From assembly GCA_963169645.1 (NCBI GenBank), contig CAUJCO010000008.1:62001-126000 (forward strand): DNA of 64,000 nucleotides. Reading direction: 5' to 3'. The notes under the pieces are model-generated. The model saw nothing but the letters and a program-made list of their open reading frames with translations, searched no databases and had not been told where the DNA came from. This DNA comes from Bacteroidota bacterium. Its GTDB lineage: Bacteria > Bacteroidota > Bacteroidia > Chitinophagales > JADIYW01. Positions 26,011 through 51,224 of the stretch are shown here, in pieces; position 1 is the stretch's first letter; the number at the start of each line of letters is the position of its first letter. Made by a program: the position numbers and the translations under genes.

Positions 26011-26400
26011 TTACAGCTTTCTAAAAGAAAGCAATAATAATATCCAACCAATAATAAAACACAAACCACCTAAGGGTGTGATGGGCCCAAGTATGGGTGT
26101 CATTGAATCTAAGCCTAATAAATGTCGCGTTGCCAATAGATATAATGAGCCGGAAAAAAATAAGATACCAATAGTGAAACTCCAACCGGCAAACACGAGT
26201 GTTTGTGAACTTAATCGTTGTGCAAAGAATGCAACTGCCAATAATGCGAATACATGGTAAAATTGGTATTGCACACCTTTGTTAAAGATTTCTAACTGAT
26301 ACGTATCTAATTTTGATTTTAGACCATGTGCACCGAAGGCACCTAATATTACTGCTGTTGCACCGTAAAAAGCAGCAATTATTCCAAATGTTTTCTGCAT
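26011..26400 (-). CDS. DUF423 membrane protein
   Basis: 129 residues with four membrane helices. Family motifs: GATAVILGAFGAHGLK, a VQYQFYHVFALL segment and GSLYLLATRHLLGLDSMTPILGPITPLGG, as in YgdD/DUF423 proteins, a widespread inner-membrane family without a known function. A -7 box (TAATTTTG) ends four bases before the ATG. The palindrome array lies upstream of this gene. Confidence 0.9.
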   Translation of the reverse strand: MQKTFGIIAAFYGATAVILGAFGAHGLKSKLDTYQLEIFNKGVQYQFYHVFALLAVAFFAQRLSSQTLVFAGWSFTIGILFFSGSLYLLATRHLLGLDSMTPILGPITPLGGLCFIIGWILLLLSFRKL

Positions 26401-26412: not shown

Positions 26413-26477
26413 CGGATAAGAATACGTTTCACTCGCTATTAATATGTAAAAATTTCCTAAATATTGTTATAAGAGCC

Positions 26478-26838
26478 ATGGTTCGTGTCCACACGAACCA
26501 TTTTATATTGGTTTGTGCAGACACAAACCAAGGCAAAGTGGAAACCTCATGTAAAAGCAATGGTTCGTGTCCACACGAACCATTTTATGTTGGTTTGTGA
26601 AGACACAAACCAAGGTGAATATGTTGGTTTGTGCAGACACAAACCAAGGCAACTGTGGAAACCTCATGCAAAAGCCATGGTTCGTGTCCACACGAACCAT
26701 TTTATGTTGGTTTGTGAAGACACAAACCAAGGCAAGGAGGTTTGTGCAGACACAAACCAAAGTAGGAACCTCATGCAAAAGCAATGGTTCGTGTCCACAC
26801 GAACCATTTTAATTTTATTTTTTGCAGAGATAAACCAA
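26478..26838. repeat. Array of two covarying 24-bp palindromes
   Basis: This fills most of the 448-bp gap between DUF423 and clpB. Type A hairpins, ATGGTTCGTG-TCCA-CACGAACCAT, lie at 26478-26501, 26560-26583, 26677-26700 and 26784-26807 and are identical. Type B hairpins, TTGGTTTGTG-(C/A)AGA-CACAAACCAA, lie at 26508-26531, 26590-26613, 26624-26647 and 26707-26730, with an 8-bp-stem copy at 26739-26758 and a decayed copy at 26815-26838. A and B have the same stem plan, GGTTYGTG/CACRAACC, with paired changes on both arms. A-B pairs are joined by TTTTAT(A/G)T and separated by a spacer containing GGAACCTCATGCAAAAGC or close variants. The array begins 10 bp past the clpB stop. Confidence 0.95.
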
Positions 26839-26848
26839 GGTAAGAGTA

Positions 26849-29449
26849 TTATTCGTTTCTAAAAATGATTTCGTCGTTGAAGCTATCGGCAATTACTTTT
26901 TTGTTTTTGTCGATTTTATCTGCCAATATCATTTTTGATAATTGATTGATTAATTCCTTATTGATTAATCGTTTCAATGGTCGAGCACCAAATTGTGGTT
27001 CGTAACCTTCTTTTGCAAAATAATCTACCAACTCGTCTGTAAATTCCAATTCAATTTCCATGTCTTTTAATTGCTTTTTCAAGCTGTTTAATTGAATTTT
27101 TACTACTTCTTTGATATCATCTTGCAACAAAGGTTTAAACATAATTACTTCATCGATTCTATTGAAAAATTCCGGACGCAACACTCGTTTTAATGCATCA
27201 AATACTTGTGCTTTGGAAGTTTCTGTTGCCGTAAAAATATCATTGTCGTTTTCTACATTTTCAAAATTTTGTTGAATCAAATGTGAGCCAATGTTAGATG
27301 TCATAATGATGATGGTATTTTTGAAATCTACAACTCTACCTTTGTTATCAGTTAATCGTCCATCTTCCAACACTTGTAACAATATATTAAAAACATCCGG
27401 ATGTGCTTTTTCAATTTCATCTAATAATACTACTGAGTACGGATGATTGCGTACGGCTTCGGTAAGCTGACCGCCTTCATCGTAACCAACATATCCCGGA
27501 GGCGAACCGATTAAACGTGATACAGCATGTTTTTCCATGTATTCGCTCATGTCGATACGCACCATTGCTTTTTCATCATCAAATAGTAACTCGGCAAGTG
27601 CTTTGGCTAATTCAGTTTTTCCAACACCGGTTGTTCCAATGAATAGGAAAGAACCTAAAGGACGTTTTGGGTCTTGCAAGCCTGCTCTGCTTCTACGAAT
27701 GGCATCGGCAACGGCAACGATAGCTTCATCTTGACCAACTACTCTAGCGTGCAAATAGCTTTCTAAATTCAATAGTTTATCTTTTTCTGTTTGCAACATC
27801 TTAGCTAATGGAATACCGGTCCATTTGGCAACTACTTCTGCAATATCTTCGGCTGTTACTTCTTCTTTCATTAATCGACTGCCTTTTTTCAACGCATCTA
27901 ATTCTTTTTCAAAGTCAATTAATTTTTGTTCTGCTTCTTTTATTTTACCATAGCGTATTTCAGCAACCTTTGCATAGTCACCATTGCGTTCTGCTTTTTC
28001 TGCATCAACTTTTAAATTTTCGATAGATTCTTTTACATTCGATATTCTATCTACGATTGTTTTTTCACTTTGCCATTTGGCTTTCATGGCATTTCGTTTT
28101 TCAGAAAGTTCGGCAATGGTTTCAGACAAGTCGTTTACTTTTATGGTATCATTTTCTCTCTTTAATGCTTCTCGTTCAATTTCCAATTGACGAATTTTTC
28201 TATCTAATTCATCCAATTCTTCCGGAACAGAATCCATTTCTAAACGTAGTTTTGCGGCCGCTTCATCTATTAAGTCGATGGCTTTATCCGGTAAAAATCG
28301 GTTGGTTATATATCTGCTGGAAAGCTCCGTAGCTGCAATGATAGCTTCATCTTTGATAGTTACTTTATGATGTGTTTCATAACGTTCTTTCAGACCTCTT
28401 AAAATGGAAACGGTATCTTCTAAGCTGGGTTCTTGCACCATTACTTTTTGGAAACGACGCTCTAAGGCTTTGTCTTTTTCAAAATATTTTTGATATTCGT
28501 TGAGTGTAGTGGCACCAATAGCACGCAACTCACCACGAGCCAATGCCGGTTTTAAAATATTGGCTGCATCCATTGCACCTTCGCCACCACCGCCGGCACC
28601 TACTAAAGTATGTATCTCATCTATAAACAAAATAATTTGTCCGTCGGAGCTGATTACTTCTTTAATTACTGCTTTTAATCGTTCTTCAAACTCACCTTTG
28701 TATTTTGCACCTGCAATTAATGCACCCATATCTAAAGAATAGATGGTTTTGGATTTTAAGTTTTCCGGTACATCGCCGGAAATGATGCGATGTGCAATGC
28801 CTTCTGCGATGGCCGTTTTTCCAACGCCGGGTTCGCCGACTAAAATCGGATTGTTTTTAGTTCTACGTGATAAGATATGCAATACACGTCGTATTTCTTC
28901 ATCGCGACCAATCACAGGGTCGAGTTTATTGGATTGTGCTAATTCGTTTAAATTTTTTGCGTATTTATCTAACGAATTATACGTGGTGTCGGCACTTGGA
29001 TTGTTGACAGTTTGTCCTTTTCTCAATTCTTTTATAGCTTGTTTTAGGCTTGATTCTGTAATGTTATTGGCTTTTAATAATTTTGATGTTTCATCGTTCG
29101 CACTAAGCAATGCTAAAAGTAAATGTTCAATAGACACGTATTCATCATTTAATTCTTTTAAATACGAATTGGCTTTTAATAAAGTTTGTGCTAATGCCTG
29201 TGATGGATATTTCATCGCATCGCCTGAAACGGTTGCTTGTTTTTTTAATAAAACAGATAAATCATTTTTGATTTTAGCAATATCGGCATGCACTTTTTTA
29301 AATAAGAAAGGTGTTACATCTGCATCGGTTTCAATGATGGCTTGTAATAAATGAAACGTATCTAAAGATGCATGTTTTGCATCGAAAGCAATTTGTTGTG
29401 CTTGAGCAATGGCTTCTTGTGATTTAATGGTATAATTATTTGGATTCAT
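26849..29449 (-). CDS. clpB: Protein disaggregase ClpB
   Basis: 866 residues, the normal ClpB length. Order: N-terminal double Clp-N domain (~1-145), first AAA+ module with Walker [14 protein letters not shown] (~205), the coiled-coil middle domain (~400-520, e.g. [20 protein letters not shown]) that distinguishes ClpB from ClpA/C, and second AAA+ module with [16 protein letters not shown] (~600), [22 protein letters not shown] and the C-terminal GARPLKRLI. With DnaK it rescues aggregated proteins after heat stress. No CIRCE-like heat-shock operator is seen upstream. Its 3' flank carries the palindrome array. Confidence 0.97.
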
Positions 29450-47730: not shown

Positions 47731-47797
47731 TGTCATTCTCATGTAAATGGAAATCTCAACACACATAAATAAGATTTCCTTATTCGATGGAATGACA
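47731..47797. repeat. Imperfect 67-bp palindrome
   Basis: TGTCATTC (47731-47738) pairs with GAATGACA (47790-47797) and GGAAATC (47749-47755) with GATTTCC (47773-47779), with equal 10-base gaps on both arms. It could fold as a long hairpin or be a decayed mobile-element end. It overlaps the start of the microsatellite by two bases. Confidence 0.55.
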
Positions 47798-47922
47798 TTA
47801 CTTCATTACTTCATTACTTCATTACTTCATTACTTCATTATCTCATTACTTCATTATTTCATTACTTCATTACTTCATTATTTCATTACTTCATTATTTC
47901 ATTACTTCATTATTTCATTATC
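47796..47922 (+). repeat. Octamer microsatellite (CATTAYTT)n
   Basis: Fifteen in-phase copies of CATTACTT (variants CATTATTT, CATTATCT) from 47796 to 47915, then a partial copy. From the seventh copy on, ACTT and ATTT forms largely alternate, suggesting duplication of 16-bp units. It lies 98 bp upstream of the TonB receptor start. The rest of the 480-bp gap (47541-48020) holds the palindrome above and AT-rich DNA; I see no gene. Confidence 0.95.
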
Positions 47923-48020: not shown

Positions 48021-51000
48021 ATGAAGAACTTAAAATTATTGTCTACGCTATGTCTGCTCCTGTTATGCAGTGTAACGATGATAGCACAAACAAAACTCAA
48101 GGGAAAAGTAACCGATGGGAAAGAACCTATCATTGGAGCCAACATCACGGTGAAAGGTACTACAGAAGGCACGGTTACCGACCTAGATGGAGTTTTCGAA
48201 TTTACCACTAATCAGCCTACACCTTTAACCTTGGTAATTTCTATGGTAGGTATGGCTACTACCGAATTAAAAATTGAAGGCAGTAAAGAAGATATCAATG
48301 TTGCCTTATCGGAAGAAACAAGTTTGCTAAATGATGTGGTGGTGGCCGCATCTCGTGTAGAAGAAAAAATCTTAGAATCTCCGGTTACCATTGAGAAAAT
48401 GGATGCTAAAATGGTAAAAACAGCCGCAGCTGCTGATTATTATGACGATTTAGCTAAATTAAAAGGTGTACAAACCATCAATGGTTCTATGACATTAACT
48501 TCTGTAAATACGCGTGGTTTCGGTGGTATTTCCAATACGCGTTTTGTACAGTTGATGGATGGAATGGATAATGCCGCTCCATTACTAAATTTTCCTACCG
48601 GAAACGTAGTCGGTATTGGTGAGTTAGATATTAATAATGTTGAGTTAGTACCGGGTGCAGCATCTGCATTATATGGTCCAAACGCATTCAACGGTATCTT
48701 ATTAATGAACTCTAAAAATCCTTTTGAACAACCCGGTTTCAGTATGCAAGTAAAAGGTGGATTTGCACAAGCCAATAATGGATATGGTGTAAAACCATTA
48801 GGAAGTGCAGCAATGCGAATCGGCCATATATTTAAATCCAAAAAAACAGGACAAGATTTTGCAGCAATAAAAGCCAATTTTAGTATTTTCCAAGGTACAG
48901 ATTGGTATGCAAATGATTATACTACAGATAGAAACTTAGGTACTGCTGATAATGTAGGAAATCCAAATTTTGATGGATTAAATTTATATGGTGATGAAAC
49001 AAGAATCTTTGTTCCTTACGGTGCAGTAAGAGGATTGTTAGTAGGTAGCGCATCTCAAAGTTTACAAAATTCACCTATATTCCAAGCAGGTGTTACAGCA
49101 GCAGTAACGGCACAAGTAAACGCACAATTACCGGCTATTACAGCAGGTGTTACAGCAGCAGTGCGTCAAAATGCATATAACCAAGCTGTTTTAGGTGGTT
49201 CACCTGATCCGGATGCTGATGCAGATGCATTTGTAGCGTCTCCAGCAGGTCAGGCAATTATTGCGGCACAAGTGCAAGCACAAGTACAATCTTTAATTGC
49301 ATCGAATGTAGCTACGCAGCTACCTATACAAGCAGCTGCTCGTGCAGCTTCAAAAGTGGACTCTATTAGTTCACTCTTAAATTTAGATATACGTAGAACT
49401 GGTTTGTCTGAAGGAAGATTGTTAGATAATAATAAAGCACAATCCGTAAAAGGGGATTTTGGTGTTTACTTCCGACCATTCAAAGATAAATCGTATGAGT
49501 TCTCTTATAATTATAGAATTGGTCATGGTAATAGCGTATATCAAGGTAGCGAACGTTATGCTTTGAGAAATTTTATTCAACAATTCCACAAAGCAGAAAT
49601 TAAAGGAAAAGATTTCTTTGTACGTTCTTATATGTCACAAACAAAAGATGGTGATTCATACAATTTATCTGCATTAGGTGCTTATACTAATGAAGGAGTT
49701 TCGCCATCTTCCGCACAATGGGTGCCAACGTATTTAAAAACATATGCAGGTCCATTAATTCAAACAGCCTTAATGCAATCTGCGGCTGAAGTATTGGCAA
49801 ATGCAAATGCTTTAACAAGTGTAGCACATGATTCAGCCCGTTCTTTAGCAGATAGACCATGGAATAGCATGTCTCCTGAACAACAACAAGCTTTGATTGA
49901 ATCTGTACGTACCGGTTTATTCCAAAGAGGTGGTGCCGGCTTCATTGATAATTCAAGATTATTCCACACGGAAGCTATGATTGATTTATCTCGTTGGACT
50001 GGAAAATGGATTGATATTCAAGTTGGTGGTAACCACAGAATGTATAGTTTGTCAACACAAGGTACGGTATTCAATGAAGATCCGGATGGAACAGGAAAAT
50101 ACAAACGTATTAAAATAAATGAATATGGTGCTTTTGTTCAATTGCAACGCAAATTCTATAAAGATATGTTCAAAATCCAAGCTTCTGTTCGTATTGATAA
50201 AAATGAAAACTTTAAAGTGATTGTTTCACCTCGTGCAGCGTTTGTAGCTACCTTAGGAAAAGATAGAAATCACAATATTCGTTTATCTTACCAAACAGGT
50301 TTCAGAAATCCGGATTCACAAGCACAATACATTTTCTTCTCAACAACAAATATCTTGTTAGGTGGTACCAAGAAAAATGCAGAACGTTATGGCATCTATA
50401 ATGGCGGTGCTTATACAATGGATTCATATAATGCCTTTGTAGCATCTGCATTGGCAGGTTCACCAGATCCTACTTTATTAGAAGAATCTAATTTTGATTA
50501 CGTAAAACCGGAACAATTACAAGTAGTAGAGTTAGGTTATAAAACAGTTTTATTCAAAAAATTAATGATTGATGTAAACGGATATTTCAATATCTATAAA
50601 GATTTCATTACTCAAATTACGGTTGTTAGCAAAGACAGTACTCGTCATAAAGGTGTATTGTTGCCGGGTGTTTCTCAAGTGATTCAAGGGTTGACAAACT
50701 CAGCTACTACTTGGAGACCGTATGTAAACATACCAGGTAAAACATTCTCGTACGGTGCCGGTTTAGGTTTAGCTTATTCATTACCTAAAAATATGACGGT
50801 AAAAGCAAATTATAGCTATATGGATTATAAAGTAAAAGGTGGTAAACCTGCAATTGGAACTGAAAAAGATCTAGGATTTAATGCTTCTAATCATCAAGTA
50901 TATTTAGGTATTTCCGGCGATCGAGTTTGGAAAGGATTAGGATTTGCTATTGATTACAGATGGCAGTCTGCTATTGATTGGAGTTCAGATTTTGCAGATG

Positions 51001-51224
51001 GTACGGTGAAAGCACGCGGTGTTTTAGATGCAAATATTGGATACTTTGTTGAAAAAGCAATGACTACTTTCAAAATTGGTGCAACAAATATTGCTGGTCC
51101 TACTTATAGAACAAACGTAGGTGGTCCATTTATTGGAAGAACATTCTATGCTTCTATAACATTTGACCAGTCTAAATTGTGGAAAGAACACCACAATGAA
51201 GTTACAGCTGGCAAAGAATTTTAA
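48021..51224 (+). CDS. TonB-dependent receptor with alanine/glutamine-rich loop insertion
   Basis: 1067 residues. Signal peptide (MKNLKLLSTLCLLLLCSVTMIAQ), carboxypeptidase-like regulatory domain (~24-100; LKGKVTDGKEPIIGANITVKGTTEG), plug (~105-235; VNTRGFGGISNTRFVQLMDGMDN, NNVELVPGAASALYGPNAFNGI) and a long barrel. Residues ~338-455 hold an Ala/Gln/Val-rich low-complexity stretch including two copies of AGVTAAV and a DPDADADAF run; this has no place in standard receptors and probably forms an external loop. A second odd stretch (~570-630) is helix-like. The receptor is not paired with a SusD gene, so it is not a typical polysaccharide system. Its upstream region carries the microsatellite. 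Confidence 0.88.
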   Translation: MKNLKLLSTLCLLLLCSVTMIAQTKLKGKVTDGKEPIIGANITVKGTTEGTVTDLDGVFEFTTNQPTPLTLVISMVGMATTELKIEGSKEDINVALSEETSLLNDVVVAASRVEEKILESPVTIEKMDAKMVKTAAAADYYDDLAKLKGVQTINGSMTLTSVNTRGFGGISNTRFVQLMDGMDNAAPLLNFPTGNVVGIGELDINNVELVPGAASALYGPNAFNGILLMNSKNPFEQPGFSMQVKGGFAQANNGYGVKPLGSAAMRIGHIFKSKKTGQDFAAIKANFSIFQGTDWYANDYTTDRNLGTADNVGNPNFDGLNLYGDETRIFVPYGAVRGLLVGSASQSLQNSPIFQAGVTAAVTAQVNAQLPAITAGVTAAVRQNAYNQAVLGGSPDPDADADAFVASPAGQAIIAAQVQAQVQSLIASNVATQLPIQAAARAASKVDSISSLLNLDIRRTGLSEGRLLDNNKAQSVKGDFGVYFRPFKDKSYEFSYNYRIGHGNSVYQGSERYALRNFIQQFHKAEIKGKDFFVRSYMSQTKDGDSYNLSALGAYTNEGVSPSSAQWVPTYLKTYAGPLIQTALMQSAAEVLANANALTSVAHDSARSLADRPWNSMSPEQQQALIESVRTGLFQRGGAGFIDNSRLFHTEAMIDLSRWTGKWIDIQVGGNHRMYSLSTQGTVFNEDPDGTGKYKRIKINEYGAFVQLQRKFYKDMFKIQASVRIDKNENFKVIVSPRAAFVATLGKDRNHNIRLSYQTGFRNPDSQAQYIFFSTTNILLGGTKKNAERYGIYNGGAYTMDSYNAFVASALAGSPDPTLLEESNFDYVKPEQLQVVELGYKTVLFKKLMIDVNGYFNIYKDFITQITVVSKDSTRHKGVLLPGVSQVIQGLTNSATTWRPYVNIPGKTFSYGAGLGLAYSLPKNMTVKANYSYMDYKVKGGKPAIGTEKDLGFNASNHQVYLGISGDRVWKGLGFAIDYRWQSAIDWSSDFADGTVKARGVLDANIGYFVEKAMTTFKIGATNIAGPTYRTNVGGPFIGRTFYASITFDQSKLWKEHHNEVTAGKEF

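Follow-up and report, generated by a model that had tools for sequence, protein, structure and literature searches.

A probable REPIN cluster downstream of clpB in a Bacteroidota bacterium and a hairpin consensus for Bacteroidota RAYT genes

Immediately behind clpB, in a stretch of 64,000 nucleotides from a Bacteroidota bacterium (hereafter the window), lies an array of hairpins with two stem forms, a C/T difference on one arm being matched by G/A on the other. What are these hairpins, and why has pairing been kept? The array is very probably a cluster of REPINs, non-autonomous elements that a RAYT (REP-associated tyrosine transposase, of the HUH/Y1 type) encoded on another contig (C13) of this Chitinophagales genome would copy or insert in the form of folded single-stranded DNA. 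This reading is based on dispersal, polarity of tag and loop, inverted pairing, linkage to a transposase gene, covariation of the stems and lineage-specific presence.

Layout of the array

The array spans 26478 to ~26841; its start agrees with an earlier note on this DNA, which had placed the end at 26838. Its GC content is 42%, compared with 33% for the window. The four type A hairpins reported earlier (ATGGTTCGTG-TCCA-CACGAACCAT) were found again, all identical, at the positions bracketed in Table 1. Up to six hairpins of type B (TTGGTTTGTG-MAGA-CACAAACCAA) had been counted; five are intact, two of them outside A-B pairs (26624-26647 and 26737-26760, the latter having lost its outer two pairs), and the sixth is decayed. 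Loops had been described as constant within a type, which is true of A (TCCA in all four) but not of B (CAGA in three, AAGA in two). A and B are separated by 6 bp (TTTATR), as noted before, and are 30 bp apart from start to start. Matches to the palindrome on the two strands numbered 18, against 0.32 +/- 0.60 expected from shuffles, and a chance origin of the array hairpins is excluded. In a comparison with Rfam, no model scored close to its gathering threshold; ten weak matches, mostly to eukaryotic microRNA or snoRNA models, were such as any hairpin gives.

The linker between the REPINs recurs at 26655-26673 and, in the form GTAGGAACCTCATGCAAAA, at 26762-26780, and the A-B unit with its linker is repeated in tandem with a period of 117. 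The array linker was looked for in the other REP clusters read in the genome and was not found. Local amplification at clpB has therefore taken place. The same two observations would favour a tandem duplication of one hairpin pair confined to this site, in which one mutation plus conversion would account for the different stems of A and B, but pairs of a C-stem and a T-stem hairpin at 30-31 bp recur on four other contigs. For the palindromes this explanation is contradicted; it accounts for nothing beyond the number of copies behind clpB, and for the whole it is extremely improbable.

Table 1. Features of the array and its flanking genes (window coordinates).
Feature	Coordinates	Strand	Description	Basis
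DUF423 membrane protein gene	26011..26400	-	Downstream of the array	
REPIN 1	26475..26534	.	GCC-tag + A (26478-26501), spacer TTTATA, B (26508-26531) + inverted tag GGC	Sequence; DNA fold
Inter-REPIN linker	26538..26556	+	Conserved, GTGGAAACCTCATG(T/C)AAAA ahead of GC(C/A) tag	Sequence
REPIN 2	26557..26616	.	GCA-tag + A (26560-26583), spacer TTTATG, B (26590-26613), inverted tag GGT	Sequence
Extra B-type REP	26624..26650	-	Tag on - strand, GCC TTGGTTTGTG-TCTG-CACAAACCAA	Sequence
REPIN 3	26674..26733	.	GCC-tag + A (26677-26700), spacer TTTATG, B (26707-26730), inverted tag GGC	Sequence
Extra B-type REP	26737..26763	-	8-bp stem, decayed tag	Sequence
REPIN 4	26781..26841	.	GCA-tag + A (26784-26807), decayed B partner (~26814-26837, ...TTTTTTGCAGAGATAAACCAAGGT)	Sequence
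clpB	26849..29449	-	866 aa; stop codon ~8 bp from array	

Elsewhere in the window, 15.6 copies of the 8-bp unit CATTACTT stand in tandem at 47796-47920 and end ~100 bp upstream of a gene (48021-51224) for a TonB-dependent-receptor-like protein of 1067 aa; the number of copies could be variable and affect expression of that gene.

Dispersal, polarity and the transposase gene

The palindrome was searched for in the window's own genome (G000; 2.70 Mb in 14 contigs). About 65 relatives were found in about a dozen clusters, and a reading of the array as mainly a local feature linked to clpB is not supported. With up to two mismatches allowed there were 70 matches, while a backward-read control pattern gave none in this genome, either exact or with up to two mismatches. 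Copies are located on contigs C4, C6, C8, C9, C12, C13 and C14, with weaker ones on C7. The clusters read hold 63 REPs with an assigned orientation, of which 54 carry a GCC or GCA tag (GCA in 21 of the 63). The tag stands two bases ahead of the 8-bp core, on the strand that has the TCNN loop. In the window this strand is + for A and - for B; the supposed two palindrome types are a single REP that occurs in either orientation and differs by C/T in the stem, and each A-B pair forms an inverted doublet with its tags outward, that is, a REPIN. Pairs in opposite orientation at 30-31 bp also occur on C6, C8, C9, C12 and C13 and nearly always join a C-stem to a T-stem partner. Fourteen C-stem/T-stem pairs were counted by hand from the clusters read, many being duplicates of each other, and because the copies are related by duplication these are not 14 independent events.

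The repeat thus has the properties of a REP: a palindrome of 20-40 bp in many dispersed copies, mainly extragenic, with a polar 5' tag at the foot of the hairpin and, in several clusters, inverted doublets with outward tags (the 30-31 bp pairs). The canonical GTAG/GTGG tag was not found; the tag is GC(C/A), so this is not a canonical GTAG REP. Pseudomonas REPs reach copy numbers well above ~65. On C14 (102810-104560; L029:4811-6561), units of ~176 bp in tandem each carry one REP of the same family, all in the same orientation and unpaired, unlike the inverted pairs of the other clusters.

All but one of the clusters lie between genes, downstream of genes, with convergent or co-directional flanks; none was seen between divergent genes among the clusters of this genome, and the remaining cluster is intragenic and in frame. 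This setting could point to a function in clpB RNA: in the 3' region of the gene the hairpins would act as terminators or 3'-exonuclease barriers, and selection on the transcript would keep the stems. The array begins ~8 bp behind the clpB stop codon, terminator-like sites number six against 0.7 in shuffles (two are on the clpB strand and followed by GCTTTT), and published REPs share the bias to gene 3' ends (PMC3733652). However, the same palindromes surround a transposase gene and recur at about a dozen unrelated sites, the array is absent behind clpB in a congener (G005), and copies stand in both orientations relative to clpB although tag and loop are polar. We consider this explanation rather unlikely; at most, a terminator or mRNA role at clpB is secondary, a by-product, and it does not explain the data.

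The transposase gene is an ORF of 186 aa at C13:202155-202715 (L026:4155-4715) with REPs on both sides, and the check for dispersed REP-like copies with a Y1 transposase, suggested in the earlier note, was accordingly positive. Its product matches PF01797 (Y1 transposase; 25.9 bits, cut-off 23) and, just above the cut-off, NCBIfam NF047646 'REP-associated tyrosine transposase' (80.8 bits, cut-off 80). The motifs are NHVH, WQ and YIHNNP, in keeping with the NH[LIV]H, WQ and YIH[QN]NP and the length of about 180 aa of TnpA_REP subclass 2.6. A search of PDB sequences gave E. coli TnpA_REP (PDB entry 4er8) as the top match, a weak one (E = 0.019). The gene is present in one full copy plus a 3' fragment, and a single copy flanked by cognate REPs is the arrangement of a REPtron. 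The RAYT of congener G005 is 78% identical and lies inside the same hairpins, which also flank RAYTs of 51-55% identity in three genomes from another family of the order (G027, G041 and G053). Among 60 genomes, a RAYT of at least 50% identity goes with the REP (5/6 versus 5/54, p = 0.0003); the REP occurs without a close RAYT in G047 (16 copies) and in G055 and G058 (some copies). In G047, a related genome, the best RAYT is 34% identical and has other hairpins beside its gene; the REP family there has perhaps outlived its transposase.

A second RAYT of the genome (C7 ~227000-227960, L030:1300-2260; 182 aa; NHIH, WQ and YLHENP) is 33% identical to the first. The hairpins adjoining it (CGAGAC-tcca-GTCTCG and GCGGTC-aga-GACCGC) are unrelated to the REP, suggesting that every RAYT is matched with a hairpin of its own. 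Fragments of RAYT 3' ends were also noted. That of the C13 gene (L026:4840-5016, ~202839-203015; ~60 codons, 69% identical) lies downstream of it between two REPs, G005 has a similar one (L076, 94% over 35 aa), and a duplicated 3' fragment accompanies the C7 gene (58% identical over 31 aa). Such fragments beside REPs were considered as a signature of one-ended copying; a duplicated fragment was present in only 12 of 82 loci and the fragments were of mixed kinds, so they are not a general feature.

Two congeners were compared at the clpB site. In G003, whose contig stops short of clpB, the left (DUF423) flank can be followed as far as TTCCTAAATATTGTTATAAG and similarity is lost at the start of the first tag; G005 keeps both flanks of the array with unrelated DNA between them. 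The DUF423-clpB interval of these genomes (L157, L158) holds other palindromic repeats (ACGGGTCACAAGACCCGT units in G003, TTGGTCGGTGC-GCA-GCACCGACCAA in G005), as if the site behind clpB were repeat-prone. The intragenic cluster consists of two REPs in frame (L021:4747-4816) in a biotin carboxylase/BCCP gene of 684 aa (C4 ~124122-126176, L021:3123-5177). The insert of roughly 60 bp adds ~20 residues between the carboxylase and biotinyl domains, and the orthologue in G003 (93% identical) is without it, the flanking codons being conserved. These differences show that copies were gained or lost after the species separated, and for the conserved biotin carboxylase gene insertion is the simpler reading.

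Hairpins beside RAYT genes across the phylum

A scan of genome contigs yielded 80 named Bacteroidota RAYT loci (Chitinophagaceae, Pedobacter, Niabella, Cyclobacteriaceae, Arcicella, Spirosoma and others). The hairpin search in these loci imposed the GTG/CAC tip and used the TC loop to set orientation, and the tag was left free. GTG-N3-5-CAC hairpins have a density of 7.87 per kb up to 300 bp from the RAYT gene and of 0.10 per kb beyond 1.2 kb, an enrichment of 79-fold. The tag is GCC in 111 of 176 hairpins, and 148 of them have CC on the 5' side, compared with six that have GG on the 3' side. REPs upstream of the RAYT are on the + strand in 63/87 cases and downstream REPs on the - strand in 66/89.

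For 167 distinct sequences, chosen by the tip GTGTCNNCAC alone, pairing at the outer seven positions is 86%, versus 56% in shuffles (maximum 60%). The covariation score is 0.405; shuffles gave 0.115 and sliding no more than 0.121. Stem distance tracks RAYT identity (Mantel r = -0.60, p = 0.001), a statistic that still contains shared genus history. G-T pairs are rare at the inner variable stem positions (5/591 cells at positions 5-7), which further counts against selection on a clpB transcript. With stems covarying throughout the phylum, the compensatory change seen in the clpB array is real and general, and the proposals of selection for the folded form and of one protein recognising both palindromes are supported. 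Two findings had been named in advance as adverse to selection. One, absence in related strains, was indeed encountered at the clpB site in the two congeners; the other, covariation arising from a single conversion event, was not, since the covariation is both genome-wide and phylum-wide.

The palindromes, clustered and mostly intergenic, might instead form a protein-binding array in duplex DNA, each being a dimer site for a nucleoid protein, gyrase or an IHF-like factor and not a transposition substrate. E. coli REPs bind gyrase and IHF, which provides a precedent. A dimer site, however, has no need of a one-sided GCC tag (the 148 to six asymmetry above) or of a strand-specific loop, and a stem that changes freely with pairing kept would be unexpected; we regard this alternative as very unlikely. 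Spacing, polarity and linkage to a transposase gene already explain the observations, and no CRISPR, attachment-site or toxin element is needed for them.

Proposed mechanism and relation to known systems

In the REPIN reading, the C13 RAYT would be the enzyme that moves these REP copies, with a strand chemistry modelled on its relatives. By analogy with the E. coli, Stenotrophomonas and Marinomonas enzymes (PMC8266576), it would bind the folded, tagged strand and cut at a dinucleotide chosen by the guide. It probably reads, on a single strand, a 5' guide of three nucleotides, GC(C/A), a TCNN loop and a 10-bp stem that ends in a GTG/CAC tip; there is no tag on the reverse strand. Owing to the C/T stem difference each A-B pair is a heterodimer, which folds into two small hairpins and not into one long cruciform. 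DNA folding of the pair gives -20.4 kcal/mol for two hairpins (in REPIN 1 separate and closed by GCC/GGC) and -12.7 for one long hairpin, which fits the suggestion that heterodimers escape enzymatic removal (PMC3733652). After insertion behind clpB, the A-B unit with its linker was multiplied in tandem at a spacing of ~82-117 bp. No target-site signature of REP insertion was established. This counts against the REPIN reading, as do the low copy number beside Pseudomonas REPs, the GCA tag in 21 of 63 copies, the genomes that have the REP but no close RAYT and the narrow margin of the NCBIfam match.

Bacteroidota RAYTs might use a guide code unlike that of the GTAG enzymes (GCC guide, GTG-TCNN-CAC tip), cleaving at GG or GC and not at CT or CA, with a mid-stem that is free to drift with the enzyme. 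In this proposal, to which we give slightly less than an even chance, the cleavage sites follow from the rule of cross-complementarity established with the Marinomonas enzyme (PMC8266576). If it is true, the left and right stems of one REPIN can differ.

By motif, length and phylum, the C13 RAYT likely belongs to subclass 2.6 (Bertels group 5). In the main text of Quentin et al. (2018; PMC6006769), these RAYTs of Bacteroidetes are associated with 'atypical secondary structures', found by eye, lacking GT[AG]G and given no consensus. The C13 system agrees in phylum, in size (186 aa; median 179 aa), in the motifs, in lacking the GT[AG]G tag and in having hairpins on both sides of the gene and more copies at other genomic sites. 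Beyond that main text, the GCC tag, the 10-bp stem with GTG/CAC tip, the TCNN loop, the outward-tagged inverted pairs at 30 bp and the stem covariation over 80 loci are specified here; the hairpins are called weaker there, whereas many of ours are perfect 10-bp stems.

The REPINs and BIMEs of Pseudomonas and E. coli (Bertels and Rainey 2011, PMC3116915; Di Nocera 2013, PMC3733652) are likewise outward-tagged inverted doublets with a short conserved spacer and tandem clusters, a bias to gene 3' ends, occasional in-frame intragenic insertion and heterodimers with different stems; they differ in the tag (GTAG) and in being far more numerous than the ~65 copies here. CGTC-tagged REPs (PMC3733652) have similar stems (8-9 bp) and loops (4-5 nt), occur in some Bacteroidetes and are mostly dimers, but have another tag and were described without a dedicated transposase, whereas here the repeats flank a transposase gene. 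The subterminal hairpins of IS200/IS605 are also read, with a 5' guide, by single-strand HUH/Y1 enzymes; unlike a multicopy IS, the C13 RAYT has one full copy, and most REPs around RAYT genes are inverted and face each other.

Dimers, heterodimers, 3'-end bias and intragenic copies have all been described for other REPs (PMC3116915, PMC3733652), and the papers listed by a literature search with the stem sequence were all unrelated. The kind of element is known; the GCC-tag/GTG-TCNN-CAC recognition consensus may be new. The REP reading explains away an apparent regulatory array at clpB. For the family, the consensus over 80 loci addresses the gap left where the main text of Quentin et al. (2018) describes the REPs of Bacteroidetes RAYTs as 'atypical', and it provides a searchable pattern and a concrete prediction of what the RAYT would read and where the cut would fall.
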